Of a stretch of 57,702 nucleotides of DNA, positions 9,960 to 32,681 are shown piece after piece. The translations under genes were made by a program, and so were the position numbers. Origin of the DNA: Sharpea azabuensis DSM 18934 (GTDB lineage Bacteria > Bacillota_I > Bacilli_A > Erysipelotrichales > Coprobacillaceae); contig NZ_JNKU01000012.1 in assembly GCF_000702165.1 (NCBI RefSeq), positions 1 through 57,702 on the forward strand, written 5' to 3'. The number at the start of each line of letters is the position of its first letter. The stretch's first letter is position 1. The notes under the pieces were generated by a model. That model was not told the DNA's origin and did not search any database. It was given only the letters and a program-made list of their open reading frames with translations.

Positions 9960-10235
9960 AAAAAACTCCCGTCTCATGCATGTAGCGCAAGAGGACGAGA
10001 GTCTAAACTTCGTGGTTCCACCTCAATTTATTGACACCTCACGATGCCAACCTTTTCGAGTACTAACATACTCTAGCACGATAACGGGTGCGGGATCCGT
10101 AGCTACTTACTATGATTTCAGCGCTCCACTCTAGGATGAGTTCAGAATGTCATAAGTACCTTTTTCACCAACCAAGGTCTCTCTCAGCTTATTACCACTC
10201 TTACTATTTCCTTTCAACGTCTTTGTTTACTTCGG
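9960..10235 (-). promoter_or_regulatory. Leucine T-box leader (tRNA-sensing riboswitch)
   Basis: Untranslated leader of the leu-ilv operon. The T-box sequence AGGTGGAACCACG lies at 10011-10023 (minus strand) in the antiterminator. The competing terminator is at 9960-10002, with arms ACTCTCGTC/GACGGGAGT followed by T6. Stem I runs from about 10230, with AGAGAG and GGTTGGTG motifs. The likely specifier is CTC (leucine) at 10138-10140, in GAACTCATCC. An overlapping ATC would read isoleucine, but CTC is followed by the expected purine. Uncharged tRNA-Leu should favour antitermination. Confidence 0.9.
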
Positions 10236-29950: not shown

Positions 29951-30601
29951 TCAAATGTTTTTTTCTAAATGGTAGGAACGTGTTGCAAGAATGACAATTT
30001 CTATCGATGCAGGATGATAATGACAGACAAGATCAAGACATTTTTCGAGAGTCGATCCTGATGTAATGACATCATCAAAAAGCAGCACTTTTTTCTTTCT
30101 CAAGACTTCACCATTCTTAATATCTATGACATCTTTAATCTTCTGACGACCTTCAAAGCTTTGTTCAGCCTGTTTAAAGGGTGATTTTTTATAAAGCCCA
30201 GTAAATATATTGGAAGAAAAAGAAGAGGCAATACCAGCTGTTGGTATGAAGCCTCTCTTTTTGTTGGCAATATCATCACTTGGTGCTACAACAATGACAT
30301 GTGATCGATAATAGTCAGAGAGGAAACGTTGATCACTTACAATAAAGGCATTACGAAGCTCGTAATCATATTGCCCCTTATAACGAAATAATAATGTCTG
30401 AAAGAATGCATTATAGCGATAGAGAATTGTCAATTTCACATCATGGAAGCTTCCCACATAATGTAATGGTTCAAATTGCGCTAAACAGGAAGCACATATG
30501 GGTGAATCATAAACTAAGGTAAAGAGACTCGGCTCTTTTCTTATCGGCTTGTGGCAGATGAGACAGAGAGGTTGTTGAGATAATGGATTGTGGATATGCA
30601 T
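29951..30601 (-). CDS. comFC: ComF-type phosphoribosyltransferase-like protein (ComFC)
   Basis: A 216-residue protein with an N-terminal zinc finger (CLICHKPI, then CASC about 25 residues later). A type I phosphoribosyltransferase fold ends in the PRPP loop VLLFDDVITSGSTLEKCLD (about residue 175). ComFC is needed for DNA uptake in naturally competent Firmicutes; its reaction is not settled. Its ATG, with AGGAG 8 bases upstream, lies inside comFA, so 61 bases encode both proteins in different frames. The first cysteine falls at residue 13, so a later start is unlikely. Confidence 0.9.
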   Translation of the reverse strand: MHIHNPLSQQPLCLICHKPIRKEPSLFTLVYDSPICASCLAQFEPLHYVGSFHDVKLTILYRYNAFFQTLLFRYKGQYDYELRNAFIVSDQRFLSDYYRSHVIVVAPSDDIANKKRGFIPTAGIASSFSSNIFTGLYKKSPFKQAEQSFEGRQKIKDVIDIKNGEVLRKKKVLLFDDVITSGSTLEKCLDLVCHYHPASIEIVILATRSYHLEKNI

Positions 30602-31692
30602 TTTTTCATCTCCTGACTGATTGTTTCGGCAATAAAGATCACTTCACCATCATAATGTTCCATCGAACGCCCTACTCTGCCTTCTATCTGCATGAGTGTA
30701 CGTTCATCAAAGATCGGATGGGAGGCATTCATGACAATGACCTGCACATCATCCACAGTGATACCACGTTCTAATATTGTTGTTGTAAAAAGGACATCAA
30801 GCTGATGATTTCTCAGTTTATCAATAAGTTGATTGATATGTGGGGTAGAAGATGAAACGCAGGCACTTCTGACATGTTTAAGTTTATGTTGATAATAGTG
30901 AAGATCTTCCACTCTAGGCACATAGATCAAAGCCACTTTACCTTGTTGTATAAAGAGATGTACAATTCGTTTCATTAGCAGCCAGTCACATATTTTAGGA
31001 CATCTTTTTATTGTTGGTAAAGGGAGATTATGTTGATGATAGCGTCGATTCATAATAAGGACATCTTCTTGGTGAATGTCACTTGAGACGAGTGTTGCAC
31101 TCATCTTAATAAAACAACGACTATAACATCTATGAAAAATATGATTAAGCACTTCATCGCCATAGAACGGAAAGGCATCAGCTTCATCCATCAATAATAA
31201 AGCAAAAGGCTTGTCACAATAGCGATACAATTGGTGAGCTGTACAAATGATAAGAGGGGCATCTTCATTAATCTTTTTTCCGCCATAAAGACAACCTATT
31301 GCAATACCTTGAATAGCTTGCAACATACGTTCATAAAGTTCTTCTACAAGGGCTTTTCGTGGCAAGGCAAAACAGACCCGTTTACCCGCGTTAATCACAT
31401 GACAAATCACTTGATATGTGATTTCCGTTTTTCCTGAACCACAAACAGCCATGACAAGCGTATTGACCTTTCGTTCATAATTCGTGACAAGAGCATCAGA
31501 GATTTCTTGTTGCCTTTTCGATAATGTAAACTTCAGTGAATAAGAAGCATGAATCTGTGAGATATTCGTCTCTTCTCTTTGATCTTCATCAATAAATACA
31601 CGATTAAACTGGATACATTTACGGCAATAAATGCGTCCATGCATTTGTGCAAAGTAACGCGGATCCTGGTTACCACAACGAGGACATTTCAT
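30541..31692 (-). CDS. comFA: ComFA, DNA-uptake helicase/translocase
   Basis: Superfamily 2 ATPase associated with pulling transforming DNA into the cell. It has an N-terminal four-cysteine zinc site (CPRCGNQDPRYF...CRKC, residues 3-25), Walker A AVCGSGKTE (about residue 90), the DEAD box LLLMDEADAFPF (about residue 180), SATL (motif III) and the C-terminal TTTILERGITVDDV and QIEGRVGRS. I choose ATG 31690-31692 (MKCPRCGN). About 383 residues, short for ComFA (often 420-460). Confidence 0.9.
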   Translation of the reverse strand: MKCPRCGNQDPRYFAQMHGRIYCRKCIQFNRVFIDEDQREETNISQIHASYSLKFTLSKRQQEISDALVTNYERKVNTLVMAVCGSGKTEITYQVICHVINAGKRVCFALPRKALVEELYERMLQAIQGIAIGCLYGGKKINEDAPLIICTAHQLYRYCDKPFALLLMDEADAFPFYGDEVLNHIFHRCYSRCFIKMSATLVSSDIHQEDVLIMNRRYHQHNLPLPTIKRCPKICDWLLMKRIVHLFIQQGKVALIYVPRVEDLHYYQHKLKHVRSACVSSSTPHINQLIDKLRNHQLDVLFTTTILERGITVDDVQVIVMNASHPIFDERTLMQIEGRVGRSMEHYDGEVIFIAETISQEMKKCISTIHYLNNLSVSSATSR

Positions 31693-31718
31693 TTCTACCA
31701 CCCAGCTACATGATAACT

Positions 31719-31741
31719 TAAAAAGACCTCTTGAGAGTCTC
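31719..31741 (-). terminator. Terminator-like hairpin 28 bases before comFA
   Basis: On the minus strand AGAC(T)CTC pairs with GAGGTCT, followed by T5. It could end the upstream ROK-gene transcript or attenuate comFA. The third TTTGAGAC repeat forms part of its left arm. Confidence 0.6.
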
Positions 31742-31769
31742 AAAGTTGTCTCAAAAAGGTCTCAAATAA
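31737..31769 (-). repeat. Three TTTGAGAC direct repeats with 11-base period
   Basis: On the minus strand TTTGAGACCTT, TTTGAGACAAC and TTTGAGACTCT follow each other without a gap, just upstream of comFA. The period is one helical turn, as for tandem binding sites on one DNA face. No known box that I recognise matches. Confidence 0.75.
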
Positions 31770-31782
31770 GTGTCAGGCACTT
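31768..31782. repeat. Palindrome AAGTGTCAGGCACTT
   Basis: Arms AAGTG/CACTT around five bases, between the ROK-gene stop codon and the TTTGAGAC repeats. Similar GTGCCTGACAC-type palindromes occur as dispersed intergenic repeats in other Firmicutes (from memory). Role unknown. Confidence 0.5.
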
Positions 31783-31787
31783 TCATA

Positions 31788-32681
31788 TTATTTGGATGTC
31801 AGATGCTGATATAAAGCACCAATAAGATTGGCATCATTATTAAACTGACAAGTTACAAGTTCTACCTTCGCACATGGGAAAGCATATTGTTGATAATAGG
31901 AATAAATATCATCATAGTTCTTTTGAATCAGTTCAAGCAATAATGGCTGAACAGAAATACCGCCACCAATAGCTACACGTTCTAAGTCGACAATAGTATT
32001 TATATTGATAATCTGAATAGCGACTTCTCGCGCAAAGGCATCAATCCCGGCAATGACTTTTTCATCACCATTATTCGCACGGTCAAAGATTTCAATGCCA
32101 GAAAGCTCAACTTCCTCGCCAAGTGCCTCCTGAACATGTTTTAACAAGCCATAAATACCACAGCGCATTGCCCATAATTCCTTCATGTTTTTAGGATCAT
32201 GATAATCTGTGATCAGATTGCTGACTTCACCTGAGGCAAAATGCTTACCAGGCACAACTTTGTGATTCATAACAAGACACCCACCAATACCTGTACCAAG
32301 AACAATCACATAAGCATCATCCACATCTTTTAAAGCGCCATAGCCCACTTCAGCATTCGCCGCACATTTTGCATCATTGCCAATTGTAATAGGGACAGGG
32401 ATATAAGCACTTAATTCTTTCACGAATTCTGTGTTGTTGTAATAGCCTAAGGCACCGGATGTATATGTATAGCCTCTTTCTGGATCAATCGCCCCAGGCA
32501 TGGAGAGAGCCACCCCAGCAACATCTTCATAGTGCTGATAAATAGATGTCAATGCTTGATAAAGCTCACCCAAGCTTTTGGGTGTATCAATTTTGCCTTT
32601 ATCAAGAAAATGATGTTCTTCATCCAATAAGCCATACTTGATACTACTTCCACCAATATCACATACTACATACTTCTTCAT
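31788..32681 (-). CDS. ROK family sugar kinase
   Basis: A 297-residue ROK protein without a DNA-binding domain. It has the N-terminal phosphate loop CDIGGSSIKYGLLD, VALSMPGAIDPERG, the catalytic region PITIGNDAKCAANAE (Asp near residue 104) and LGTGIGGCLV. The usual CxCGxxGCxE zinc motif is not present; the region reads HFASGEVSNLITDYH. Next to a PTS, a GH1 glycosidase and an RpiR regulator, it may phosphorylate beta-glucosides or free glucose (inferred). It follows the RpiR gene by 15 bases. Confidence 0.88.
   Translation of the reverse strand: MKKYVVCDIGGSSIKYGLLDEEHHFLDKGKIDTPKSLGELYQALTSIYQHYEDVAGVALSMPGAIDPERGYTYTSGALGYYNNTEFVKELSAYIPVPITIGNDAKCAANAEVGYGALKDVDDAYVIVLGTGIGGCLVMNHKVVPGKHFASGEVSNLITDYHDPKNMKELWAMRCGIYGLLKHVQEALGEEVELSGIEIFDRANNGDEKVIAGIDAFAREVAIQIININTIVDLERVAIGGGISVQPLLLELIQKNYDDIYSYYQQYAFPCAKVELVTCQFNNDANLIGALYQHLTSK

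Follow-up and report, generated by a model that had tools for sequence, protein, structure and literature searches.

An array of 11-bp direct repeats in front of comFA of Sharpea azabuensis, a candidate operator of an activator-dependent promoter conserved across the family

In Sharpea azabuensis, three perfect copies of TTTGAGAC, spaced 11 + 11 bp and on the same strand as comFA, precede this DNA-uptake gene and, as judged from sequence comparison, the array is real, part of the comFA promoter and probably an on-switch shared family-wide. That the array serves as an operator appears almost certain, and on balance comFA, with comFC behind it, is probably transcribed from a promoter that depends on an activator bound to this array, possibly one of the OmpR/PhoB type. 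The window, by which the whole analysed stretch of 57,702 nucleotides is meant, shows the following features at this site:

29951..30601, minus strand: comFC-like phosphoribosyltransferase gene, next gene after comFA
30541..31692, minus strand: comFA, DNA-uptake helicase, with the ATG at 31690-31692; the listed open reading frame starts at an upstream TTG
31693..31709, minus strand: very short leader that carries the ribosome-binding site (GGGTGGTAG)
31710..31715, minus strand: -10 element TATCAT, 21 bp past the last unit, with an equal gap in relatives
31719..31763, minus strand: hairpin with T-run within array and spacer, probable ROK terminator, genus-specific
31737..31744, minus strand: proximal unit 3, TTTGAGAC, of all units the best conserved family-wide
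31748..31755, minus strand: unit 2, TTTGAGAC, 11 bp downstream of unit 1
31759..31766, minus strand: distal unit 1, TTTGAGAC
31788..32681, minus strand: ROK-family sugar kinase gene, with its stop just upstream of the array

Read along the minus strand, the order is ROK kinase, array, comFA and comFC-like gene, and several homologs of ComFA start their alignment at the ATG at 31690-31692 or about one residue off. The first-pass annotation had described three perfect eight-base repeats 11 bp apart, which both the coordinates and the shuffles confirm. The octamer alone is not rare (four copies in the window versus 2.95 expected); but nowhere else in the window is an octamer composed of three or more different letters repeated three times with a constant spacing between 9 and 25 bp, and such a triplet appeared in none of 20 dinucleotide-shuffled windows. 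Even with two mismatches allowed, the two-unit pattern has no second occurrence in the 2.41-Mb host genome. A palindrome, AAGTGCCTGACACTT, lies at 31769-31783 just after the ROK stop; as it is single-copy in the host genome and lost in the close relative G001, it was rejected as part of the element and placed outside it.

Conservation was assessed in 37 genomes of the family (G000-G036), 36 of which possess comFA, and all 36 upstream regions were scored. Compared with dinucleotide shuffles, a two-unit array together with the -10 element reaches p<0.01 in 27/36 and p<0.05 in 29/36 comFA regions, leaving seven of the 36 above p=0.05. G035 and G033 are borderline cases, with p=0.06 and p=0.083, and G009, G010, G016, G017 and G025 lack an array at comFA as well as any genome-wide match to the pattern that contains the -10. 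The sister family of the order shows array plus -10 in none of 16 comFA regions, these having been taken from 21 full-length comFA matches. Absence of the repeats from a close relative with the same gene order would, according to the first-pass annotation, count against a control element; G001, in which the same gene end lies upstream, retains all three units, the -10 and nearly all spacer bases unchanged, and the stretch just upstream has diverged.

The host layout reads TTTGAGAC, 21 bp, TATCAT, 17 bp, ATG. When the array was placed by its units alone, with the -10 unused, 29/36 comFA regions reached the score limit, and the match to the -10 in these peaks at a gap of 21 bp, with a mean of 4.62/6 and at least 5/6 in 22/29 regions, compared with means of 0.62-3.24 at all other gaps between 8 and 33 bp. 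TGAGAC-like hexamers pair at distances of 11 bp (29 pairs), 22 bp (18) and 33 bp (12), against fewer than 0.1 per spacing in mononucleotide shuffles; the genomes of one family being related, counts across them are not independent and overstate independence. The 11-bp period before comFA across the family supports the earlier proposal that the units lie on one face of the DNA. The proximal units hold more information than the distal ones, and a fourth unit is present in trace. Matches to a -35 element at 16-18 bp do not exceed those in shuffles, 2/33 regions reaching 4/6 where about five are expected. Chance as the origin of the array is ruled out by the shuffles, by its uniqueness in the host genome, by conservation in the family and by the hexamer spacing. 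A mobile or phage-borne repeat was likewise rejected, as the pattern was without match in viral contigs and blastn against phages returned short pieces only.

Other genes stand behind the same pattern. Including the -10, it gives 103 matches in 43 family genomes versus 3 for the reversed pattern, with at least one match in 29/43, and 39 matches versus 1 for the reversed control in 60 relatives. Target genes, taken from loci of both searches and 40 further stretches and thus covering part of all matches, were named by domains where proteins had been scanned and otherwise from reading translations; they comprise comFA, ruvA, rlmB, genes of Rpn-type PD-(D/E)XK proteins and peptides of about 31-37 amino acids with one membrane stretch, and further DUF4250 with a PLP enzyme, hisS and a HAD hydrolase. 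Counting only genomes whose gene start was located by script, the array reaches p<0.01 at ruvA in 13/34 (the one of G025 among them is weak) and at rlmB in 22/37 genomes. At 27 comEC loci the upstream frame is mostly the end of RuvB, followed by ComEA and ComEC, with this order partly visible in some (G004); as ruvB, comEA and comEC run on directly, transcription from a ruvA promoter probably extends to comEA and comEC. Behind rlmB lies a gene with a sigma-70-like domain. Only about 17 bp separate the rlmB arrays (L257-L298) from the ATG, which places the expected -10 within the reading frame, and a promoter there could serve the downstream sigma gene and not RlmB; the rlmB site may thus work otherwise than the comFA site. 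Genes of Rpn-type (PD-(D/E)XK, YhgA-like) nucleases carry the array often several times per genome (L037, L052, L058, L087-L091, L100 and L126, the last by Pfam). The tiny one-helix membrane peptides (xxVAGIxxYYICKWLD) behind arrays (L040, L044, L047, L048, L055, L104, L111) have strong ribosome-binding sites and a weak holin match, and are possibly type I toxins or holin-like.

The array is not common to all com genes. Within the host, ruvA, rlmB and dprA are without array and comFA alone carries the site. A scan at a threshold of 18/22, at which 18/36 comFA regions score, found no array in 19 comGA-type loci, 30 dprA loci or the comEC loci examined; one match fell in the loosely fetched locus L082 and all others in loci chosen by the pattern itself, and comGA showed none by eye. 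The suggestion to look before other com genes thus yielded the ruvA-ruvB-comEA-comEC cluster in part of the family, with comGA and dprA negative; the wider proposal of a control element for DNA-uptake genes is supported, family-wide at comFA and at that cluster in part of the family. The comGA loci (L158-L176) show a conserved promoter-like stretch of another kind, for example GAAAAAT..AAAAATGCGTATATATAATAGGAGG (or GAGCGAATAA, TATCGTAA); the sigma-H-like factor may act on this stretch.

As the best explanation, a putative DNA-binding protein would line up head to tail, one monomer per 11-bp unit of the consensus AAAyTTGAGAC, over arrays of two to four units. Bound on one face of the helix just upstream of the would-be -35 position and replacing a -35, it would recruit RNA polymerase to the -10, which lies two turns of the helix beyond the last unit. 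A small regulon in Coprobacillaceae would depend on this one protein and would link comFA, ruvAB-comEA-comEC, the sigma-H-like gene behind rlmB, Rpn-type nucleases and the small membrane peptides. Both hexamer direct repeats at about 11 bp and an array in front of a -10 without a proper -35, as expected of OmpR/PhoB-type operators, are found at comFA, and the 6-N5-6 arrangement of the repeats suggests that the reader may be a response regulator of this type, an assignment that we regard as nearly evenly balanced. The WalR/VicR regulator of this class recognizes TGTWAH-N5-TGTWAH, and its known targets concern the cell wall. The comFA array shares with it the 6-N5-6 form of direct repeat at a distance of one turn (PMC4168254 describes hexamers separated by 5 bp) but differs in sequence and targets. 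The CiaR box of streptococci, likewise OmpR-type, is TTTAAG-N5-TTTAAG placed 10 bp from the -10; according to PMC3091779, its hexamers are directly repeated across 5 bp, the -10 is activator-dependent, and the CiaR system affects competence. In contrast to that box, the hexamer at comFA is TTGAGA, up to four units occur and the -10 follows 22 bp after the last TTGAGA, one turn further than the 10 bp in CiaR. OmpR-type DNA-binding domains are present in 43/43 genomes with 5-28 matches each, which is necessary and yet insufficient for an assignment. Among the 30 OmpR-type and 8 LytTR regulator loci examined none shows an array at 18/22, which gives no clue from autoregulation.

Whether the bound protein would activate or repress decides between the leading reading and the first of its rivals, as the position of the site alone fits both. 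A direct-repeat binder, CtsR-like or other, could block polymerase at comFA until released on a signal; direct-repeat operators of repressors do exist, as for CtsR with its direct heptads of the pattern GGTCAAA-N3-GGTCAAA. However, with no -35 visible the bare promoter would be weak, the site always keeps the same distance to the -10 downstream of it, as is usual for activators, and the CtsR pattern occurs in 0/36 comFA regions. A repressor is thus unlikely here, and activation can be held with good, if not full, confidence. Regulators of the LytTR type such as ComE and AgrA bind direct repeats with a period of 21-22 bp and control competence in streptococci. Such a protein might use units 1 and 3, two turns apart, as these are better preserved than unit 2 in some comFA regions, AAAyTTGAG within the unit (with its TTGAG) resembles the ComE box, and in genus g12 (G012:C1, G024:C54, G033:C72, G061:C2) comFA is immediately preceded by a LytTR gene. 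Tandem units with an 11-bp period are nevertheless the rule, and G005 and G014 (96% and 97% complete) retain the comFA array without any LytTR match at E<=0.001, which makes this regulator highly improbable. The ComK box, AAAA-N5-TTTT, is missing from the host comFA region and present in 5/36 comFA regions overall.

Promoters of the spoII type, with a long distance between -35 and -10, are activated by Spo0A, and a diverged Spo0A might read TTTGTCTCAAA, the opposite strand of the unit, which has the TGTC core in common with the 0A box TGTCGAA (PMC3485338). The same source links Spo0A to competence control in B. subtilis and to binding upstream of sigH in C. difficile, so that competence and sigH offer a further likeness. 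On the other hand, TGTCGAA is found in 0/36 comFA regions on both strands, the unit lacks the contacted G5 (PMC3485338), and the target genes read included none recognisable as a sporulation gene; control by Spo0A is unlikely. An alternative sigma factor, for instance the sigma-H-like protein encoded behind rlmB, is a further candidate, as the array lies upstream of rlmB and this gene; Lactobacillus sakei transcribes com genes with sigma-H, and its sigH has surroundings conserved in Firmicutes (PMC3364868). With the known control of late com genes by sigma-H/ComX the array shares a sigma-H-like gene among its targets. But two to four equal 11-bp units with a sigma-A-like -10 are unlike a -35/-10 pair or any sigma promoter, a 22-bp spacer exceeds what such a pair would have, and comGA, a usual late gene, is without array, its own conserved element being the better-fitting sigma target; a sigma promoter is accordingly very unlikely.

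The hairpin that overlaps the array had been read by the first-pass annotation as part of a switch in which alternative RNA folds of repeats and hairpin control read-through into comFA. Part of this description stands: a full hairpin with T-run exists in the host, its pairs lying within about 31723-31763 (MFE -14.9 kcal/mol, z -1.9, equalled by 9/200 shuffles), and GAGACC of the first unit does pair with GGTCT of the 3' arm in the folded structure. Its T-run reaches as far as 31719, which leaves about 27 bases to the comFA ATG. The shorter hairpin formed from the third unit alone is no better than chance (z 0.3), and a terminator scan with a loop limit of 8 did not list the hairpin. As for the proposed control by alternative pairing, the hairpin is found in G000 (the host) and G001 only, and the other genomes retain array and -10 without it. 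As the predicted comFA transcript start lies downstream of the hairpin, the latter would act on ROK transcripts and not on transcripts from the comFA promoter, and it is probably the terminator of the upstream ROK gene laid over the promoter rather than an attenuator. Rfam matches no family at the site of array and hairpin, and a terminator/antiterminator switch, like an attenuator or riboswitch before comFA, appears extremely improbable. A T-box leader is present elsewhere in the window, at 9988-10226 (Rfam RF00230).

Returning to an activator on the array, it is conceivable, though we lean towards doubt, that a lineage-specific competence regulon exists in which one regulator on 11-bp TTTGAGAC arrays would drive comFA, comEA, comEC, ruvAB, a sigma-H-like factor, through which comG would in turn be driven, as well as recombination-promoting nucleases. 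If true, gut Coprobacillaceae would possess a competence circuit separate from ComK, ComE and ComR. An operator with a fixed promoter layout is a handle that names target genes and predicts transcript starts, and the array could be used as bait for the regulator and hence lead to the conditions for natural transformation in these common gut bacteria, which are hard to manipulate genetically.

The accessible open-access literature yielded no report on competence control in Coprobacillaceae, Erysipelotrichaceae or Thomasclavelia and, for the octamer TTTGAGAC or comFA promoter motifs, none of such an element, the octamer matches listed there being off-subject. For Bulleidia of the sister family a comG locus has been reported, and a word search of the available text found neither ComK nor ComX (PMC12786226). 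Searched in 84,980 species genomes, the exact pattern occurs in eight stretches (the record of the window itself possibly being left out): named matches are Candidatus Stoquefichus, Eggerthia, Faecalibacillus (two) and Thomasclavelia, followed by an Erysipelotrichaceae MAG and a Bacillota MAG, with match positions equal to those of G061 and G029, and by one Defluviitaleaceae MAG, which may be a chance match. Nearly all named matches belong to Coprobacillaceae, where NCBI places Eggerthia and Faecalibacillus, and we infer that the whole family f1 is Coprobacillaceae. In the sister family, ssb of locus L050 (G055) carries a four-unit array with a TATACT -10, the sole such match there in the search of 60 relatives.
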